From: Silvibacterium dinghuense
GTDB taxonomy: Bacteria > Acidobacteriota > Terriglobia > Terriglobales > Acidobacteriaceae
DNA: 64,000 bases
Reading direction: 5' to 3'
NCBI RefSeq assembly: GCF_004123295.1
Contig: NZ_SDMK01000001.1
Span: 1,302,001 to 1,366,000 of the forward strand
Shown here: positions 17,162-27,196 of the stretch, piece by piece
How positions within the stretch are numbered: the stretch's first letter is position 1
How the letters are laid out: each line of letters opens with the position of its first letter
Notes under the pieces: model-generated
Told to the model about the DNA's origin: nothing
Database searches by the model: none
What the model saw: only the letters and a program-made list of their open reading frames with translations
Position numbers and translations under genes: made by a program

Positions 17162-19795
17162 ATGTCTGACATCGGAAACACCCCGGAAACCGCCCCCCAG
17201 GCGGAGGAAACCAGCCGCGAAACCCGCTATAACCCTGCCGAGATCGAGCCTCGCTGGCAGGAGCGCTGGGCCGCAGATACCGAACTCTATGCCATTGAGC
17301 CCGCCGCCAGCGGCAAGCCCAAGTACTACGTGCTCGAGATGCTGCCCTACCCTTCGGGCAAGCTGCACATGGGCCACGTCCGCAACTACTCCATCGGCGA
17401 CGCGCTGGCCCGCTACCAGTGGATGAACGGCTACAACGTCCTGCATCCCATGGGCTGGGACGCCTTCGGCCTGCCGGCCGAGAACGCCGCCATCAAGAAC
17501 AACACCCCGCCGCGCGAGTGGACGCTCTCGAACATCGCCGCCATGAAGGAGCAGATGGCGCGCCTCGGCCTGAGCTATGACTGGCAGAACGAAGTCACCA
17601 CCTGCCTGCCCGATTACTATCGCTGGAACCAGTGGTTCTTCCTGCGCATGTATGAGAAGGGCCTGGCCTATCGCAAGCAGAGCAAGGTGAACTGGTGCCC
17701 GCAGTGCGCGACGGTGCTCGCCAATGAGCAGGTCATCAACGGCTATTGCTGGCGGCACGAGGACCAGCTGGTCGAGCAGCGCGACCTCGAGCAGTGGTTC
17801 TTCCGCATCACCAACTACGCGCAGGAGCTCGTCGACGGCCTCGACCAGCTCGAAGGCTGGCCCGAGAAGGTGCGCACCATGCAGCGCAACTGGATCGGCC
17901 GCAGCGAAGGCGCGGAGGTCGAGTTCGGCATCGAGGACGCATCGAGCGCGCCCGGTGATGAACCGCGCAAAGGCACGTCCGTGCTGCCTGCGCTCGAAGG
18001 CGTGAAGCTGCTCCAGGAAAAAATCACCGTCTTCACCACGCGCATCGACACCATCTACGGCGCCACCAGCGTACAGCTCGCGCCCGAGCACCCGGTTGCG
18101 AAGCAGTTCGCCGCCGCGGACGCCGAGCTCGCCGCGTCGGTCGAGAACCTCATCGCGCAGCAGGCGCTGGCCCGCGAGGTCGGCGACATCGGCAATATCG
18201 AGAAGCACGGCGTCTTCACCGGCCACTACGCGGTGAACCCCTTCAGCGGCGAGCGCCTGCCCATCTGGGTAGCCAACTACATCCTGGCCGACTACGGCAC
18301 CGGCGCCATCATGTCCGTGCCCGCGCACGACGAGCGCGATTACGAGTTCGCGCAGAAGTACGGCCTCGAAGTCCGCATCGTCATCCTGCCGCGCCGGGTG
18401 ACTGATCCGAGCACCGGCAAAGAAGAGGAGCCCATGCTCCCCTACACCGCCGAGGACAGCCTGCTCATCAACTCCGGCGAGTTCAACACCCTGGGCAACG
18501 AAGAAGCGCAGCACAAGATGGCCGCCTTCGCCGACGAGCATGGATTCGGCCGCGCCAAGGTCACCTTCCGCCTCAAGGACTGGGGCGTCAGCCGCCAGCG
18601 CTACTGGGGCACGCCCATCCCGATGATCTACTGCGCGAAGGACGGGATTGTTCCTGTTCCTGACGATCAGCTCCCCGTGCTGCTGCCCGAGAACATCGCC
18701 ATCACCCAGCAGAACGGCTCGCCGCTCAGCCACGTACCCGAGTTCCTGAACACCACCTGCCCGAAGTGCGGCGGCCCGGCCCGGCGCGAGACCGACACCA
18801 TGGACACCTTCGTCGACTCGAGCTGGTACTTCTACCGCTACACCAGCGCGAAGGACGCGACAGCGCCCTTCGATTCGAACGCGGTCGACTACTGGTTTCC
18901 CATCGACCAGTACATCGGCGGCGTCGAGCACGCCATCCTGCACCTGATCTACTCGCGCTTCTGGACCAAAGTGATGCGCGACCTCGGCCTCATCAAAAAC
19001 AGCGAGCCCGCCGAGCGACTCTTCACCCAGGGCATGGTCATCAAGGACGGCGCGAAGATGTCGAAGTCCAAGGGCAACGTCATCTCGCCCGACGAGATGA
19101 TCGGCCGCTACGGCGCCGATGCCACGCGCGCCTACGCGCTCTTCGCCGCGCCTCCCGACCGCGATCTCGACTGGCAGGAGAACGGCGTAGCCGGCGTCAG
19201 CCGCTTCCTGGGCCGCGTCTATCGCCTGGTGATGCAGTATGCCGAGCGCGCCCGCGCCGCCCGCGGAGGCGACGCAACGGCCACCACGCCCGCCGCGCAG
19301 GCCATCCAGCGCAAGCTGCACCAGACCATTCGCAAGATCACCGAGGACTTCGCCGGCCGCTGGCACTTCAACACCTGCATCGCCGCCATCATGGAGCTGG
19401 TCAACGCCCTCTACGCAGCCGAACCGGCGATTGCCGCAGGCGAAGTGTCCGATGCCGTGCTTCGCGACGCGCTCGAAAAGCTGGTCCTGCTGCTCGCGCC
19501 CTTCGCCCCTTATCTCGCCTGCGAGCTCTGGGAGCAGCTGGGCGAGAGCGGAGCGATCCTGCGCGTGAGCTGGCCTAAGTACGACGAAGCGCTGGCCCGC
19601 GAAGATGAAGCCGAGATCCCCGTCCAGATCAACGGCAAGCTGCGCTCGGTGATCCGCGTAGCCGCCGGAGCCTCGCAGGAAACCCTGCGCGATGTCGCCC
19701 TGGCCGATGAAAAGGTGCAGGCCTCGCTCGCCGGACGCACGGTAGCCAAGGTCATCATCGTTCCCAATAAGATGGTGAACCTGGTCGTTAAGTAA
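17162..19795 (+). CDS. leuS: leucyl-tRNA synthetase
   Basis: A class I aminoacyl-tRNA synthetase of 877 residues, the normal bacterial length. The HIGH-type signature is HMGH at about residues 69-72 in YPSGKLHMGHVRNYSIGD. The CP1 editing domain spans roughly 230-430 and includes TRIDTIYGATSVQLAPEHP and MSVPAHDERDYEFA. The KMSKS loop is KMSKSKGNV at about 632-640, followed by the anticodon-binding helical domain and a C-terminal domain (VQINGKLRSVIRV). The start MSDIGN at 17162 is chosen because the upstream in-frame extension is repeat sequence. It has its own transcription unit between two repeat-filled gaps. An 847-residue antisense frame is a GC-rich shadow. Confidence 0.97.
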   Translation: MSDIGNTPETAPQAEETSRETRYNPAEIEPRWQERWAADTELYAIEPAASGKPKYYVLEMLPYPSGKLHMGHVRNYSIGDALARYQWMNGYNVLHPMGWDAFGLPAENAAIKNNTPPREWTLSNIAAMKEQMARLGLSYDWQNEVTTCLPDYYRWNQWFFLRMYEKGLAYRKQSKVNWCPQCATVLANEQVINGYCWRHEDQLVEQRDLEQWFFRITNYAQELVDGLDQLEGWPEKVRTMQRNWIGRSEGAEVEFGIEDASSAPGDEPRKGTSVLPALEGVKLLQEKITVFTTRIDTIYGATSVQLAPEHPVAKQFAAADAELAASVENLIAQQALAREVGDIGNIEKHGVFTGHYAVNPFSGERLPIWVANYILADYGTGAIMSVPAHDERDYEFAQKYGLEVRIVILPRRVTDPSTGKEEEPMLPYTAEDSLLINSGEFNTLGNEEAQHKMAAFADEHGFGRAKVTFRLKDWGVSRQRYWGTPIPMIYCAKDGIVPVPDDQLPVLLPENIAITQQNGSPLSHVPEFLNTTCPKCGGPARRETDTMDTFVDSSWYFYRYTSAKDATAPFDSNAVDYWFPIDQYIGGVEHAILHLIYSRFWTKVMRDLGLIKNSEPAERLFTQGMVIKDGAKMSKSKGNVISPDEMIGRYGADATRAYALFAAPPDRDLDWQENGVAGVSRFLGRVYRLVMQYAERARAARGGDATATTPAAQAIQRKLHQTIRKITEDFAGRWHFNTCIAAIMELVNALYAAEPAIAAGEVSDAVLRDALEKLVLLLAPFAPYLACELWEQLGESGAILRVSWPKYDEALAREDEAEIPVQINGKLRSVIRVAAGASQETLRDVALADEKVQASLAGRTVAKVIIVPNKMVNLVVK

Positions 19796-19836
19796 GCAAG
19801 GGTGCAGGGTGTAGTTCCCTCACCCCTCCCGCATGG

Positions 19837-20254
19837 TGTCATCCCGACCGAAGCGGAGGGACCTGCAGTTCCCTCCGCAAGCGAAGATGCGGGTGCCCCA
19901 CGTCTCGATGTTGAGACGTGGGCTTGCAGGACGCAACGGTGGCCCATGCAAGTCTGGTTCTGGCGTGAGTGGGGCAAGTAAAATCCGGGTGCCCCACCCA
20001 TGACGCGCAGTCGGTCATGGGTGGGTCTCCGAAAACCCTTGAAGTGAGCCGTGATCGAGCGTTTCCGAACCTCTACACGTATCCCCGGTTCGCGCGAAGA
20101 ACGCCAAGTTCCGCGAAGATCGCAAAGTTATTTCAGATAAGAAGCCCGGATGCCCACCTCTCGTTCTGTTTGAGATGTGGGTTTGCAGGATAAGAAAGCG
20201 AATTGGCTGAGATAATGACTCCGGGTGCCCCACGTCTCTCTTTTGAGACGTGGG
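19837..20254. repeat. repeat cluster: C element, two full and one degenerate A stems, one D stem
   Basis: Contents of the 537-base gap after leuS: a C-type repeat (TGTCATCCCGACC..., 19837-19873), an A stem (19891-19922), a D stem CCCACCCATGAC / GTCATGGGTGGG with tail GTCTCCGAA (19987-20034), a fragment with CGCGAAGAACGCCAAG (about 20093-20130), a degenerate A stem (20146-20187) and a further A stem (20223-20254). No gene is supported in the gap. Confidence 0.7.
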
Positions 20255-20332
20255 ATCACCGTATGTCTCCGAAAAGGCGGTTCCGCGATCCCCGTCCAGA
20301 GCGCAGTCCGAGGCACGCAATCCTTTGTTCAC

Positions 20333-21208
20333 GTGCTCGGGGAGTGCCGCCGCCGGCCCTCTCTCCTCTTGCTCGAGCTGCTCTGGCGATGGAGTTTCGG
20401 CCTGCCGCTCACCCTGATCCTCGGCTGGGAGGCCTGGCGCATCTACCGCGTCGCATCCACGCAGATCGCCGCAGGCCTCAGCGACTTCACCCTTACTGAC
20501 CCCACGCAGGCCGCGACCATCGCGGCGAACCTCTACGCCGCCGTCGCCCCGCCCATCGTCCAGTTCCTCGGCTGGTTTGCACCGCTGGCCATGGCCGCCT
20601 GGGCCGTTGCCTCGGGGATCGGACGCAATGCCGTCCTGCGCCGCTACGATCCCACCCTGCCGAATCGCTGGGAAACGCTCGCCGCGCTGCAACTGCTCCG
20701 CGCGGCCGCGCTGGCTGTCTCAGTCTGGATCTGGTTCGCCGGCATTCACTGGGCCGCATCCGCCACGCTTAACGTCCCGACAGACGGCGAGCCGAACATC
20801 GTCGGCTACTTCGCGCTGGTGGTCTGCCTCTCACTGGGAGTTTTTGTCGCCTGGGCGCTGGCCAGCTGGGTCTTTTCGATTGCGCCACTTCTGGTGTTGC
20901 TCGAGGACCGCGGCATTACCGCCGCCCTCAAGCGCAGCCTGCGCCTGGGCCCGCTCAAGGGCAAGCTGGTCGAGGTCAACTTCATCATGGGCATCGTCAA
21001 GGTGATCCTCGTGGTGCTGGCCACGGTCTTCTCCGCCACTCCTCTGCCCTTTTCCTCGGATATGACCGGCCCGGCGCTCTGGATATGGTGGGCCGCCGTC
21101 ACCCTCGCCTACTGCGTCGCCGCGGATTTCTTCCAGGTGGCGCGGCTGGTGGCGTTTCTGGAGCTTTGGCGGGTGTTTACCGTTCCGGACTCCACGCCGC
21201 GGAGCTGA
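20333..21208 (+). CDS. integral membrane protein of unknown function
   Basis: A 291-residue protein with about six predicted transmembrane segments, for example LLELLWRWSFGLPLTLIL, APPIVQFLGWFAPLAMAA, AALAVSVWIWFAGIHWA, YFALVVCLSLGVFVAWALA and a C-terminal ALWIWWAAVTLAYCVAADFF. Just before the last pair is the segment EDRGITAALKRSLRLGPLKGK, reminiscent of DUF4013/glycerophosphoryl-diester-like membrane domains but not diagnostic. The open frame extends back to 20225 through a palindromic repeat, so I place the start at the GTG at 20333, just before ECRRRPSLLLLELLWR; this is uncertain. No function is assigned. Confidence 0.6.
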   Translation: MLGECRRRPSLLLLELLWRWSFGLPLTLILGWEAWRIYRVASTQIAAGLSDFTLTDPTQAATIAANLYAAVAPPIVQFLGWFAPLAMAAWAVASGIGRNAVLRRYDPTLPNRWETLAALQLLRAAALAVSVWIWFAGIHWAASATLNVPTDGEPNIVGYFALVVCLSLGVFVAWALASWVFSIAPLLVLLEDRGITAALKRSLRLGPLKGKLVEVNFIMGIVKVILVVLATVFSATPLPFSSDMTGPALWIWWAAVTLAYCVAADFFQVARLVAFLELWRVFTVPDSTPRS

Positions 21209-21232
21209 ACGCCCCGCGACAAAGCAAAACTG

Positions 21233-21262
21233 CAGGCTCCCCCACTGCGCGGCCGGAATGAC
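21233..21262 (-). repeat. C-type repeat, inverted and truncated
   Basis: Reverse-strand C element (CCCCCACTGCGCGGCCGGAATGACA) facing the forward copy at 21301, giving a head-to-head pair 38 bases apart, like paired REP units. Confidence 0.6.
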
Positions 21263-21300
21263 AGATCTTGTTCAGACAGTGGGATTCCCGATGAAAACCC

Positions 21301-21764
21301 TGTCATTCCGACCGGAGCGAAGCGAAGTGGAGGAACCTGCAGTGCCCTTCAAGTCGGCATATCACCTTCGTAACTGGCGAAGCGAGTATGGTTTCAGTAG
21401 AAGATGCCATATCGAGGATAGCCAGTGATGAGCCGTTGCTATTTCGTCTACCTCATCGCAAGCCGAACGCGGGTACTCTATTGCGGAGTCACAGGCAATC
21501 TTGAAAAAAGAACCTACGAACATCAGAACGGGATTTTCGAAGGTTTTAGTTCTAAATACCACTGCACCAGACTCGTCTGGTTTGAAGCCTTTGAGGACGT
21601 CCGCAATGCCATCGACCGCGAAACACAAATTAAGCGCTGGCGAAGAGAGAAAAAACTGGCATTGATTACTCGAATGAACCCTTCGTGGACCGATCTCAGT
21701 GAATCGTGGCAGAGATAGAGCACTGCGGGTTCCTCCACTGCGCTACGCTCCGATCGGAATGACA
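21301..21764. mobile_element. candidate mobile cassette: GIY-YIG gene between 44-bp inverted C repeats
   Basis: Left arm 21301-21344 and right arm 21721-21764 are inverted copies matching at 40 of 44 positions. The 376 bp between them contain a single gene, the GIY-YIG ORF, whose stop codon lies 2 bp before the right arm. Other C copies in the window (19837, 21233, 23503) carry no gene. No clear target-site duplication was found. Confidence 0.55.
21428..21718 (+). CDS. small GIY-YIG nuclease domain protein
   Basis: A 96-residue protein that is almost entirely a GIY-YIG domain: FVYLIASRTRVLYCGVTG provides the two signature tyrosines (GIY and YIG equivalents), KRTYEH the catalytic Arg at about residue 28, and IDRETQIKRW the metal-binding Glu near 67. 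The ending NPSWTDLSESW is typical of the UPF0213/YhbQ-like stand-alone group, which has no settled function. GAGG lies upstream, and GTG at 21425 is an alternative start. The gene is enclosed by near-perfect inverted repeats, suggesting that it may be cargo or the enzyme of a small mobile unit. Confidence 0.85.
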   Translation: MSRCYFVYLIASRTRVLYCGVTGNLEKRTYEHQNGIFEGFSSKYHCTRLVWFEAFEDVRNAIDRETQIKRWRREKKLALITRMNPSWTDLSESWQR

Positions 21765-21841
21765 AAGTAAAAGATGAACGCTCGGGAAACGAAATTCTCG
21801 ATCCCCGAGTCACTAAAAGCGATGACAAAGTAAACTGAAGA

Positions 21842-23395
<1,554 letters not shown>

Positions 23396-23411
23396 CTTGC
23401 CGTCACGAGCG

Positions 23412-23450
23412 TTGGGCCTTCGGCCTCTGCTCCCGCTGGTCGCAAGCCGG
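23412..23450 (-). repeat. tail-type repeat (B), inverted
   Basis: Reverse copy of the tail module (GGCCTTCGGCCTCTGCTCCC then GCTGGTCGC), immediately after guaA. Confidence 0.55.
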
Positions 23451-23467
23451 CATCCTCGCTGCATAAG

Positions 23468-23497
23468 AAAGGCGCGCTTCGGCGCGCCTTTCCATTT
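23468..23497 (+). terminator. guaA intrinsic terminator with UUCG tetraloop
   Basis: Perfect 10-bp stem AAAGGCGCGC / GCGCGCCTTT closed by the stable TTCG loop (23468-23491), followed by CCATTTCC. It lies 73 bases after the guaA stop. Confidence 0.75.
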
Positions 23498-23502
23498 CCG
23501 AT

Positions 23503-23558
23503 TGTCATCCCGACCGAAGCGAACGACGTGAGAGCAGTGGAGGAACCTGCAATTCTGC
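23503..23558 (+). repeat. C-type repeat with internal insertion
   Basis: TGTCATCCCGACCGAAGCGAA, an additional 12-15 bases, then GTGGAGGAACCTGCA; same family as the inverted arms at 21301 and 21721. Confidence 0.6.
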
Positions 23559-23637
23559 GATCTCCACAGAACAAGAGTAAGGATCCAAGCCAACACAGCT
23601 CGAGTGAATCACCACCTCATCGAATCTCTGCACCTGA

Positions 23638-24114
23638 TCAATACAAGAGATACTGCTTCCACTCTTCTCCTTCAGCTACTTTCTTCAGAACAGCGTTCCG
23701 CTCACGCAAGAACCGCGCAAGATAAGGCCGCAGAAAGATCTCGGCCATACTGCCCGCAATCGCAAAAGGGACTTCGAACCGGAGGACGTCCGTCATCATG
23801 GTGGCGCCCAAATTTTCCTGCTGGAAATAATGGTCGTGCTGGAAAGAGCGAAACGCTCCGCGCAGCATCGTGTCCTGAAAGTAGTCAGGACGCTCATACT
23901 GCGTAATCTTGCTGGTCAACTCCTGCCAGACTCCGAAATGCCGGGCACGCCACGTCACCTGCTCTCCAAGGTTAATTAGCCCTGAAGTAATTCCAGCAAC
24001 CGCCGCTTCTCCAGAGCCTTCCGCACTGCGCACATGCACGTCGATGCTCCTGGAAAGGTCAAAACACCGCTCAACCGGTGCATGAATTAGCGTGCTCTGC
24101 TCTATCGTGACCAT
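23638..24114 (-). CDS. SRPBCC family protein (START-like, ligand-binding or cyclase/dehydrase type)
   Basis: A 158-residue protein with the SRPBCC/polyketide-cyclase fold: it starts MVTIEQSTLIHAPVERCFDLSRSIDVH, has the central GEQVTWRARHFGVWQELTSKIT strand pair and RFEVPFAIAGSMAEIFLRPYLARFL as the long C-terminal helix. Similar small proteins bind hydrophobic ligands; no catalytic function is evident. The start is placed at 24114 because the SRPBCC fold begins there, although the open frame runs to 24324 and would overlap the start of the M14 gene on the other strand. No clear ribosome site is present. Confidence 0.75.
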   Translation of the reverse strand: MVTIEQSTLIHAPVERCFDLSRSIDVHVRSAEGSGEAAVAGITSGLINLGEQVTWRARHFGVWQELTSKITQYERPDYFQDTMLRGAFRSFQHDHYFQQENLGATMMTDVLRFEVPFAIAGSMAEIFLRPYLARFLRERNAVLKKVAEGEEWKQYLLY

Positions 24115-24211
24115 ACACAAGCAAAGGATACGCCGCTTCTCGCAAGATCCTTTGTTATCCTTCCTCAAACCCGCATCACCCACGAAATCCCGATCATGAA
24201 GGATGCTTGAG

Positions 24212-27196
24212 ATGTCCCGCTTAAGATCGCTTCTCCCTTTGTGTCTCTCTTTCGCCTGTACCGGCGCGCTTTTCGGCCAGACCAACATCGCCTCCGAGCT
24301 CAAACCCGACCTGAGCCAGCCCATCGACCAGGGCTACACGGCGAAGATCAAGCAGTACACGACCGATCCCTCCTTCAACTCGCCGCTGACGAGCTATCTA
24401 CCCGCATCAAAGACCGTCCCCACGCCAGACAAGGTGCTCGGCGACGTATCCGGCGCGCCCAACATGCTGCCTTACGCCGAGGATGTCTACAAGTACTTCC
24501 GCCTGCTCGAGAAGAGCACGCCGCGCGTGAAGGTCTTCAGCATCGGCCACACCGAAGAAGGCCGCGAGATGATCGCCGCCGCCATCGGCGACGAATCGCT
24601 GATCACAAAGATGCAGGAGAACGATGCGCGGCTTGCCAAGCTTGCCGACCCGCGTACCATCGGCATGGATGACGCCAAGGCTGCTGAACTTGTGAAGCAA
24701 TCCTTTCCCATCTACTACATCACCGGCACCATCCACTCGCCCGAGACCGGCGCGCCCACCGCACTGATGGAGCTGGCCTACCGCCTCGCCGTCGACAACT
24801 CACCCTATATTCAGTACATCCGCACGCACATGATCGTGCTCATCACCCCGGTCGTCGAAGTCGATGGGCGCGACCGCATGGTCGATATCTACAAGTGGCA
24901 CGTCGCACACCCGAACGAGCAATGGCCCCACCTCGTTTACTGGGGCCACTACGTCGCGCATGACAACAATCGCGATGCCATGGGCATGACGCTCGACCTC
25001 ACCCGCAACGTCGAGAACACTTACATCAACTTTCACGCGCAGGTGCTGCACGATCTGCATGAGTCCGTGCCCTTCCTCTATGACAACACTGTCGGCGACG
25101 GCCCCTACAACGCATGGATCGATCCGCTGCTCAACGGCGAGTGGCAGATGCTGGGCTGGAACAACATCCAGTCGATGACCGCCTTCAAGATGCCCGGCGT
25201 CTTCACCCACGGCGACTTCGACACCTGGTCACCCGGCTACCTGATGTTCATCGCCGCGATGCACAATGGCATCAGCCGCCTGTATGAAACCTTCGGCAAC
25301 GGCGGCGCGGACACCGAGAAGCGCATCCTTTCTCCCGACGAATACGCACGCACCTGGTACAAGCCCAACCCGCCACTGCCGCAGGTGGTGTGGTCGCAGC
25401 GCGATAACAACAACTACGAGCAGACCGCGCTGCTCTCGACCATCTCCTTCTTTGCGCAGAATGGCCAGCAGTTCCTCTCGAACTACTACACCAAGAGCAA
25501 GCGCTCCATCGAGAAGCCCGAGAATGCAGGCCCCGCGGCCTACGTGATCGACGAGCCCATGTCCAGCCGCGAAGCGCAGATGCTGCGCACCCTCGCACTG
25601 CAGCATGTCGAGATCAGCAGGCTCGATGCCTCGACGACGGTGAATGTGCCTGCGCCTGCTAAGCCCGAGTCGAAGGATGGCAAGGACGACAAGGACAGCA
25701 AGCCCAAGACCGAGACCTTCGCCGCCGGCCGCTATGTCATCCGCATGGATCAGCCCTACTCGCGTATCGCCGACGCGCTGCTCGACCGCCAGTATTGGGC
25801 TCCGGACGATCCGCAGAAGACGCCCTACGATGACACCGGCTGGAGCTTCCCCGATCTCTTCCACGTGAAGGTCGCGCGCGTCACCGATCCCGCCATCCTG
25901 AAGGTGAATCTTTCACCTGTGAAGGATCTTGAAGCCGAGATCGACACCACCTCTGGCTCGGGCAGCATCTATGCCGTGAACAACAACTCCGAAGTCACGC
26001 TCCTCGGCCTGCGCTACACCTTCAAGGACGCGACCATCTCCGTGGCCGATGCGGCCTTCGATGCGGGCGGCCATCACTTCGCTGCCGGCTCGCTGCTGAT
26101 CGAGAACGCCGACGGCGCGAAGGTGAAGGATGCCGTGCACGAGGCGGGCCTCGAAGCTGTCGGCCTCAGCGCCATGCCCGAAGTCGCGCATCACAACGCG
26201 CCCGCGCCGCGCATCGCATTCATGCATACGTGGATCGCGACGCAGACGGAAGGCTGGTGGCGCGAGGCCTTCGATCGCGCGCACGTACCCTTCGACTACA
26301 TCAGCACGCAGACCGTAGCAAAAGAAGAGGACCTGCGCGCGAAGTATGACGTGATCGTCTTCGCGCCCGTGGGCCGCTCCTCCACGCAGTCCATCATCAA
26401 CGGCATGCCCATGTATGGGAACCCCATCCCGTGGGAGAAGACCGAGCTCACTCCTAACCTCGGCCGCATCGACTCGACGCCCGACATGCGTCCGGGCCTC
26501 ACCTGGGCCGGCGTGCAGCACCTGCAGGACTTCATCAGCAAGGGCGGTCTGCTCATCACCTCCGAAGACACGGCGCAGTTCGCCATCGAGATGGGCTTCG
26601 CGCCCGGTGTCAGCGTCTCGCGTGGTGGCAACGTGCGCGTCGTCGGCACCATCCTCAACGCGGCCTTCGTCGATAAGAACGGCCCCATCACCAACGGCTA
26701 TGACACTGCGGCCGATCTCGGCGTCTACAGCGCCGACGGTCTTGCCTTCCAGATCTCGAACACCATCGGCGGAGGCGGACGCCGCCATCTCGGCTCGGGT
26801 GTAGAGCGGCCCACCGGCCGCGGCGGACCCGATGAGCAGGACTCACCCGAGGACCGCGCCTTCGTTGCGCCCGAGACCACACCGCACGTGAAGCCGTGGG
26901 AGGCCATGCCGCTCAACGAGGATCAGGCCCGCGACAACATCAACCTCATTCCCGAAGCCTACCGCCCGCAGGTCATCCTGCGCTTCGGCTCAGGAAAGGG
27001 CTTCCTGCTTGATGGCCTGCTCGACAACGGCAACTCGATTGAAGAGAAGCCTATCGTCGTCGATGCCCATCTGGGCGAAGGCAACGTGCTGCTCTTTGCC
27101 AATAACCCTGTCTATCGCGGCGAAACGCTGGGGACGTATGCCCTGGTCTTCAACGCGATCCAGAACTTCGACCGGCTAGGCAAGGCGGCGAAGTAA
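24212..27196 (+). CDS. secreted M14 family zinc carboxypeptidase with long C-terminal region
   Basis: A 994-residue exported metallopeptidase. A signal peptide (LLPLCLSFACTGALFG) is followed by the M14 catalytic domain: GHTEEGREM, the zinc motif HSPE in TGTIHSPETGAPT (about residues 174-180), and the third ligand His in LHDLHESVPF. The remaining roughly 550 residues are a beta-rich linker and a class-I-glutamine-amidotransferase-like region (IAFMHTWIATQTEGWWREAF ... ISKGGLLITSEDTAQFAI), a layout often seen in bacteroidete and acidobacterial M14 proteins. The ATG at 24212 is preferred to 24203 because AAGG sits 9 bases upstream. It probably trims peptides in the periplasm or outside. It is divergent from the SRPBCC gene and followed by three palindromic repeats. 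Confidence 0.88.
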   Translation: MSRLRSLLPLCLSFACTGALFGQTNIASELKPDLSQPIDQGYTAKIKQYTTDPSFNSPLTSYLPASKTVPTPDKVLGDVSGAPNMLPYAEDVYKYFRLLEKSTPRVKVFSIGHTEEGREMIAAAIGDESLITKMQENDARLAKLADPRTIGMDDAKAAELVKQSFPIYYITGTIHSPETGAPTALMELAYRLAVDNSPYIQYIRTHMIVLITPVVEVDGRDRMVDIYKWHVAHPNEQWPHLVYWGHYVAHDNNRDAMGMTLDLTRNVENTYINFHAQVLHDLHESVPFLYDNTVGDGPYNAWIDPLLNGEWQMLGWNNIQSMTAFKMPGVFTHGDFDTWSPGYLMFIAAMHNGISRLYETFGNGGADTEKRILSPDEYARTWYKPNPPLPQVVWSQRDNNNYEQTALLSTISFFAQNGQQFLSNYYTKSKRSIEKPENAGPAAYVIDEPMSSREAQMLRTLALQHVEISRLDASTTVNVPAPAKPESKDGKDDKDSKPKTETFAAGRYVIRMDQPYSRIADALLDRQYWAPDDPQKTPYDDTGWSFPDLFHVKVARVTDPAILKVNLSPVKDLEAEIDTTSGSGSIYAVNNNSEVTLLGLRYTFKDATISVADAAFDAGGHHFAAGSLLIENADGAKVKDAVHEAGLEAVGLSAMPEVAHHNAPAPRIAFMHTWIATQTEGWWREAFDRAHVPFDYISTQTVAKEEDLRAKYDVIVFAPVGRSSTQSIINGMPMYGNPIPWEKTELTPNLGRIDSTPDMRPGLTWAGVQHLQDFISKGGLLITSEDTAQFAIEMGFAPGVSVSRGGNVRVVGTILNAAFVDKNGPITNGYDTAADLGVYSADGLAFQISNTIGGGGRRHLGSGVERPTGRGGPDEQDSPEDRAFVAPETTPHVKPWEAMPLNEDQARDNINLIPEAYRPQVILRFGSGKGFLLDGLLDNGNSIEEKPIVVDAHLGEGNVLLFANNPVYRGETLGTYALVFNAIQNFDRLGKAAK

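Follow-up and report, generated by a model that had tools for sequence, protein, structure and literature searches.

The window, that is, the whole 64,000-nucleotide stretch of Silvibacterium dinghuense DNA analysed here, holds a unit in which a small GIY-YIG nuclease gene is boxed by two inverted hairpin repeats, and the association of this gene with such repeats, which recurs in the same genome, in its family and in other phyla, is almost certain. The pairing itself, its orientation, its spread over phyla, the covariation of the hairpin, the excess of gene-less tag-out dimers in genomes with the gene, and sites that carry the unit in one relative but not in another were all observed directly. 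The unit is interpreted, with moderate confidence, as a minimal mobile element composed of a stand-alone GIY-YIG nuclease gene and two hairpin repeats of the CGTC plan with their tags facing outward, its spread being inferred. REPs are common bacterial repeats, and RIME and NIME are names given to repeats. For GTAG REPs a dedicated enzyme is known, and none was apparent for the CGTC class in the available part of a 2013 survey (PMC3733652); the present data suggest that the GIY-YIG enzyme is the missing partner that spreads CGTC-class repeats.

An earlier note on this DNA had claimed near-perfect inverted arms, a GIY-YIG reading frame between them, further copies of the repeat without a gene, a head-to-head pair of repeats and a position close to guaA, and all of these features were confirmed (Table 1). 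The arms are identical at 40 of 44 positions (21301-21344 against 21721-21764) and can be extended to the 48-bp versions of the table; the stop codon of the GIY-YIG gene ends 2 bp before position 21721, and its last two bases are overlapped by the inner end of the 48-bp right arm. The gene guaA starts at 21842, just beyond the element, and an 88-aa ORF on the opposite strand (21362-21628) overlaps the GIY-YIG ORF. The start of the repeat, TGTCATTCCGACCGGAGCG, is matched four times in the window at up to three mismatches, compared with 0.03 matches expected from shuffles. A second palindromic repeat, CCCACGTCTC-n6-GAGACGTGGG, is also found near the element at 19897-19922 and 20229-20254, and copies resembling it occur near the GIY-YIG paralogue in locus L003.

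Table 1. Features of the repeat-boxed GIY-YIG unit and its surroundings (positions within the window)
Feature	Position	Strand	Basis or remark
Entire unit (both arms and the GIY-YIG gene)	21301..21764	+	Genome carries two more units of this kind
Left arm, tag TGTC at outer (left) end	21301..21348	+	Inverted repeat, 43/48 match
Right arm, tag at outer (right) end	21717..21764	-	Inverted repeat, 43/48 match
Gene for the 97-aa GIY-YIG nuclease, starting with GTG (ATG at 21428)	21425..21718	+	PF01541, E 2.9e-14; conserved residues
Degraded extra repeat copy, tag-to-tag with left arm	21229..21263	-	Repeat comparison
Solitary gene-less repeat copy	19837..19874	+	Direct match to repeat
Solitary gene-less repeat copy downstream of guaA	23503..23558	+	Direct match to repeat
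ORF-to-guaA gap holding the element	21209..21841	not applicable	Gap too short in 6/6 congeners with guaA found

The genome of S. dinghuense (5.1 Mb, 9 contigs) contains three members of the GIY-YIG family, namely the window copy and two others at 78% and 73% identity, all three boxed by inward-pointing repeats with the tags outside. At up to three mismatches, the repeat occurs 309 times genome-wide (153 + 156), compared with 5 (3 + 2) for the same pattern read backward. On contig C4, for example, 56 repeat sites lie within 240 kb, and neighbours less than 700 bp apart comprise 10 tag-out pairs, 2 tag-to-tag pairs and 7 pairs in the same direction; the ten tag-out pairs include seven gene-less ones of 105-133 bp, two of 206 and 250 bp, and one gene-bearing pair of 469 bp. 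Some gene-less dimers of this contig (G000, C4: 133525, 236984 and 319292) resemble one another over a short distance beyond the tags (AGTAAAAGGC and GATAAGGGTA-like), as though more than the dimer had at times been amplified.

In a survey of 150 genomes of the Acidobacteriaceae family, the gene, called at E 1e-6 or better, was found in 93 genomes, with 222 copies in total and 1-9 copies per carrier. The flanks were checked at 32 loci, made up of the three S. dinghuense copies and the best match from each of 29 other genomes. The tag motif points inward on both sides within 300 bp at 28 of the 32, and 24 are boxed inward by the hairpin rule ([CT]GTC-AT-NNN-loop-NNN'-A[TC] within 300 bp of the gene), against 3 of 364 control windows. 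The earlier note had further predicted that the number of repeats would track the gene, which proved to be the case: the median is 51 repeats per genome with the gene (n = 93) versus 10 without it (n = 57; p 1.4e-10), repeat number rises with gene copy number (Spearman 0.58), and at least one tag-out dimer is present in 45 of 93 genomes with the gene versus 9 of 57 without. Among genomes that are at least 90% complete, 299 tag-out dimers were counted in the 73 with the gene versus 8 in the 39 without; none of these comparisons carries a phylogenetic correction. Six family copies of the gene, among the matches listed, contain an in-frame stop.

The occurrence of the repeats in large numbers without the gene, which the same note had put forward as a refutation, was met in part, since at least 40 repeats were counted in 11 of the 57 genomes without the gene. 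A profile re-search of 8 of these 11 genomes gave a partial match in one, the other seven remaining gene-less. The gene-less genome G032, which is 100% complete, carries 156 repeats, with no tag-out pairs less than 200 bp apart among the 100 sites listed, and genome G079, which is 76% complete and in which no gene was found, has 22 dimers. Because of the repeat-rich gene-less genomes and the dimers of G079, it is concluded that persistence or spread of the repeats is possible in the absence of the gene. The 17 sites of G032 that were read (L215-L228) are solitary hairpins, in which the inner stems differ greatly in sequence and length and the tag and outer stem are near-constant.

Beyond the family, running the family alignment against 84,980 species genomes yielded at least 560 confirmed relatives, of which the best 80 were kept, representing 25 named phyla together with five rows without a phylum; usable flanks were available for 77. 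By the strict motif of the hairpin rule, inward repeats are present on both sides at 44 of the 77 loci and at none of 2159 control windows, the remaining 33 loci failing the rule, and at least one hairpin repeat lies nearby at 75 of the 77 compared with 238 of the 2159. Within the same best 80 of at least 560 relatives, 34 of 59 loci outside Acidobacteriota are boxed inward, and 21 of the 25 named phyla sampled have at least one such locus. A previous, still stricter version of the rule, demanding four paired bases after CAT, had retained only 4 of the 77 loci; it was replaced by the looser AT plus 3 bp because it left out arms plainly seen in a motif-free comparison. As a result of this switch, the rule was fixed after the arms had been seen, the controls being scored by the same rule. 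In the motif-free comparison itself, the inverted-repeat score of 35 of 78 scored loci (again from the best 80 of at least 560) exceeds the maximum of 1640 controls, as counted by hand. Elsewhere in the multi-phylum contigs, repeats of this plan also exceed chance expectation (114 versus 39.8 in resampled sequence), whole-genome repeat counts having been made in the window's family only. That most copies would lie between inverted repeats, as the earlier note expected, is therefore seen in the genome itself, the family and the multi-phylum set, and its description of the layout as REP/RAYT-like with a GIY-YIG gene in place of Y1 is supported. Exceptions are found in a plasmid collection: one of seven loci read, that of Rhizobium tumorigenes (L154), has no such repeat within 300 bp on the left side of the gene, and at the N. 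gonorrhoeae locus the repeat adjoining the right end points the opposite way.

The arms share one plan, a (C/T)GTC tag followed by a hairpin and a tail, in which the stems covary: across the best 80 of at least 560 relatives, stem letters vary between loci but pair within a locus. An inward tag lies within 250 bp in 130 of the 160 flanks of this set, and 116 of the 130 tags are followed by a matching 3' stem, compared with 26.9 +- 4.5 (maximum 41) after stems were randomly reassigned between loci 1000 times. The two arms of a locus have the same stem in 22 of 52 cases, where 6.5 are expected. When five arms from other genera were folded, four did better than shuffled sequences and the fifth did not. 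The DNA of the window repeat, with its short TTCC/GGAA stem containing mismatches, showed no advantage over shuffled sequence when folded. On the protein tree, stem types are clustered (35 changes versus 49.2 shuffled, minimum 41). The idea that stem type and protein clade have evolved together across phyla was considered and rejected, the cross-phylum pairs being not significant (148 of 500 shuffles as high, or 11 of 500 when GC-stratified).

This plan is that of the CGTC superfamily of REPs, described as high-copy and intergenic (Di Nocera et al. 2013, PMC3733652). According to the part of that survey available, its members have an unpaired CGTC, TGTC or CCTC tag at one end, an 8-9 bp stem starting with AT, a loop of 4-5 nt and a short tail, mostly CCA, and occur predominantly as dimers; the hosts include A. 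lipoferum, S. meliloti, Neisseriae and Bradyrhizobium, and dRS3 is named (PMC3733652). A GIY-YIG gene was located near CGTC-type repeats in members of all four of these groups. The units described here resemble the superfamily in their unpaired (C/T)GTC tag, AT-starting stem, high copy number, intergenic position and paired copies, and differ from it in that a GIY-YIG gene is boxed by the repeats, no transposase being reported for CGTC REPs in what is available of the survey. The tag is TGTC in the window arm, CGTC or TGTC in the arms of other phyla and CCTC in S. meliloti. The high copy number is met (the 309 versus 5 sites given above, assessed in the window's family only), and the stem and loop sizes are met by the arms of A. 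lipoferum and Nitrospirae but not by the window repeat, whose stem is shorter and imperfect. Similarly, a CCA tail is present in A. lipoferum and at loci L142 and L131, whereas that of the window repeat is CTGCAG. By strict criteria, the window's repeat is a variant, and not a full member, of the CGTC superfamily.

Empty sites in relatives, which the earlier note had named as support, were found in six congeners and also in Azospirillum, Sinorhizobium and Sphingobium. A DNA search for guaA in eight other congeners matched six, and in all six only 42-141 bp separate guaA from the end of the aligned ORF upstream of it, versus 671 bp in the window, which leaves too little room for the 464-bp unit. 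In Azospirillum lipoferum, the GIY-YIG gene lies between sufB and sufC, a place from which it is absent in four other Azospirillum records that were read; Shinella carries a GIY-YIG unit with near-perfect arms in the same gap, apparently an independent insertion relative to that of A. lipoferum. Sinorhizobium C101 has a unit near purQ where S. meliloti Ak57 has none, at 96% flank identity, and among six Sphingobium strains read the unit is present in three and absent in three. With regard to insertion boundaries at strain level, the strict rule recognised no such repeats, presumed chance matches aside, in 50 kb of pSymB from S. meliloti 1021 or in 50 kb of three A. brasilense plasmids and one A. 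argentinense plasmid. Although no movement has been shown, mobility of the repeat-gene-repeat unit is considered very likely. Some boxed copies seem to decay in place, since the boxed gene of Sphingobium TYG73 (L238) is one base shorter than that of its relatives and is unannotated.

The conserved GIY-YIG Tyr, Tyr, Arg and Glu are present in the protein and are assumed here to play catalytic roles. Residues Y8, Y18, G20, R28, H32, E65 and N84 (ATG numbering) are conserved, each in 77 to 81 of the 81 sequences, with the caveat that residues 61-69 are biased by the scan pattern. The dN/dS ratio is 0.06 for one pair of paralogues, the other two pairs being synonymously saturated, and this single value points to purifying selection on the gene. 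The predicted structure consists of a single domain (pLDDT 93.9), for which a fold search gave UPF0213 as the nearest match (E 3.6e-4, the only one at E 0.001 or better) and, more weakly (E 0.015), Slx1, a GIY-YIG enzyme that processes branched DNA. UPF0213 (BH0048, PDB 1zg2) is likewise a stand-alone GIY-YIG domain of about 95 aa and is the best PDB match by both sequence and fold; however, identity in the structural alignment is 22%, and none of the 30 UPF0213 loci read, of 57 matches listed, is boxed. PADLOC returned no match. A phage origin was rejected, as a search of a phage collection with one alphaproteobacterial member gave no match and the best PHROG match reached only E 0.067.

The favoured mechanism, which is inferred, begins with the nuclease recognising, in single-stranded or cruciform form, the tag and hairpin of the repeat that boxes its gene, in the way that Slx1 handles branched DNA; it would then nick or cut there, and repair of the break from another copy would spread either a gene-bearing unit or a gene-less dimer. 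The route could be homing-like repair, single-strand transfer, or cutting and rejoining. That the nuclease acts on its own hairpin is inferred to be likely, without cleavage having been shown, and a homing-like route is no more than a tentative inference. The element probably spreads by hairpin cleavage and repair, and to call the unit self-mobilising is likewise an inference, given that neither cleavage nor movement has been shown. By analogy, the GIY-YIG nuclease would serve CGTC repeats as RAYT is thought to serve GTAG REPs. In the RAYT/REPtron system, as described in the available part of PMC3733652, a Y1 transposase is paired with GTAG REPs; in both systems REPs flank one small endonuclease gene and are also found in large numbers away from it, frequently as inverted pairs, but the RAYT enzyme is of the HUH/Y1 type, whereas the present one is an unrelated GIY-YIG protein (PF01541), and the REPs belong to a different superfamily. 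Because the enzyme is unrelated, the element is RAYT/REP-like yet not a member of that system. No link between GIY-YIG proteins and REPs appeared in titles or beginnings of abstracts among the matches listed from the open-licence literature, which leaves out preprints and most subscription papers; as far as PMC9465073 and PMC10928387 were available, they mention the proteins without linking them to repeats.

The alternative that survives best, although it is judged unlikely, is that a homing endonuclease invades existing palindromic repeats spread by something else, a double-tag palindrome being opened and then repaired from a gene-bearing copy. The empty site of Sphingobium TYG64 holds just such a palindrome, whose sequence is exactly what the outer halves of both arms in occupied strains would give when joined; those of TYG74 and S. 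meliloti Ak57 hold diverged palindromes of the same double-tag form, and that of TYG72 a different one. The abundance of solitary hairpins in a gene-less genome is also in keeping with repeats that spread by other means. A double-tag palindrome at an empty site may be either an excision footprint or an insertion target, and the two cannot be told apart here; in the window's family such palindromes are uncommon, with 9 spread over 7 of the 150 genomes, and none was seen at the empty Azospirillum and window sites. The invasion of existing repeats is weakened, too, by the gene-less tag-out dimers, which track the presence of the gene as the gene's own units do. GIY-YIG homing endonucleases join the same catalytic fold to a separate DNA-binding domain, have a defined empty target allele and reside in an intron or intein host. 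The present protein shares that fold, and mobile behaviour is plausible for it, but its 97 aa include no separate DNA-binding domain, no intron or intein hosts it, and its gene sits between inverted repeats; with regard to homing-type features, the model has a single domain, and empty alleles with a double-tag palindrome were seen in two genera only.

A selfish or useful passenger gene that merely tends toward repeat-rich intergenic DNA is improbable, even though the repeats near the gene are often extra copies in both orientations. Orientation is indeed not exclusive, outward repeats being found on both sides at 21 of the 77 loci (best 80 of at least 560) versus 4 of the 2159 controls, and control windows lying mostly in coding DNA understate the chance level for intergenic sites. 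Other genes of at least 100 aa in the same contigs were added as a control for this reason, and only 3 of 167 proved to be boxed inward (1 of 63 far from the GIY-YIG gene and 2 of 104 nearer to it). The unboxed UPF0213 genes point the same way, though their loci are poorer in repeats (0.12 versus 0.37 per kb).

Much less credible is the possibility that the repeats are the ends of a transposon moved in trans by a DDE or Y1 transposase, with the GIY-YIG gene as cargo. A Y1 transposase gene does exist in the genome (L172, G000:C1:2075683-2076006), the only one found, but no copy of the window repeat lies within 1.5 kb of it (3.3 kb read), and it was rejected as the mover; DDE enzymes lay outside the search. 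This Y1 gene bears inverted repeats of its own, TATCAGGGCACGGCTTCAGCCGTGCC, unrelated to the window repeat. Moreover, the summed direct-repeat length at 14 dimers (16 versus 12.7 +- 4.6 with shuffled partners) gives no sign of a target-site duplication, leaving the MITE/TIR criterion unmet, and CGTC repeats are stated, in the part of the survey available, not to be associated with transposase genes, a dedicated transposase being apparently absent (PMC3733652). Domestication, in which the repeats would be regulatory RNA or DNA hairpins such as terminators and the nuclease would have a cellular repair role, can draw on the intergenic position of the repeats and the weak fold resemblance to Slx1, but is scarcely tenable given the patchy distribution of the gene over the family genomes, its varying copy number where present, its presence or absence at orthologous sites, and the lack of any Rfam family at the gathering cut-off in 19500-24500 of the window.

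If the reading as a minimal mobile element is true, there would be a bacterial mobile element with a GIY-YIG nuclease as its only enzyme, and the spread of the repeats would become directly testable; a specific, small and testable candidate enzyme, boxed at one or more loci in 21 of the 25 named phyla sampled (best 80 of at least 560 relatives), would close the gap left by the CGTC class. A wider proposition, which is equally open to being right or wrong, combines two ideas: that CGTC-type REPs, including the rhizobial ones and the dRS3 of Neisseria, are non-autonomous products of one ancient class of hairpin-cutting GIY-YIG elements, and that, as a wider rule, several small nucleases of unrelated kinds (Y1, GIY-YIG and possibly DUF559) each have a palindromic repeat class of their own.

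With respect to DUF559 genes, which are restriction-endonuclease-like, four loci were read out of 43 records matched (L161:1630-2040, L243:583-921, L244:439-975 and L245:565-903, from two Sphingomonas, an Azospirillum and a Deinococcus), and all four carry inverted palindromes of the CCCCTCTCCC-GCAA-GGGGAGAGGGG type, placed either at the gene ends or a little way inside them, with inverted-repeat scores of 41-53 and no control. These may possibly represent a further pairing of nuclease and repeat, about which a search of the open-licence literature returned nothing relevant. The gap between sufB and sufC (L152, L160 and L161) is occupied by a GIY-YIG unit in both Azospirillum lipoferum and Shinella, and by a DUF559 unit in Sphingomonas, and it is possibly a shared landing place.
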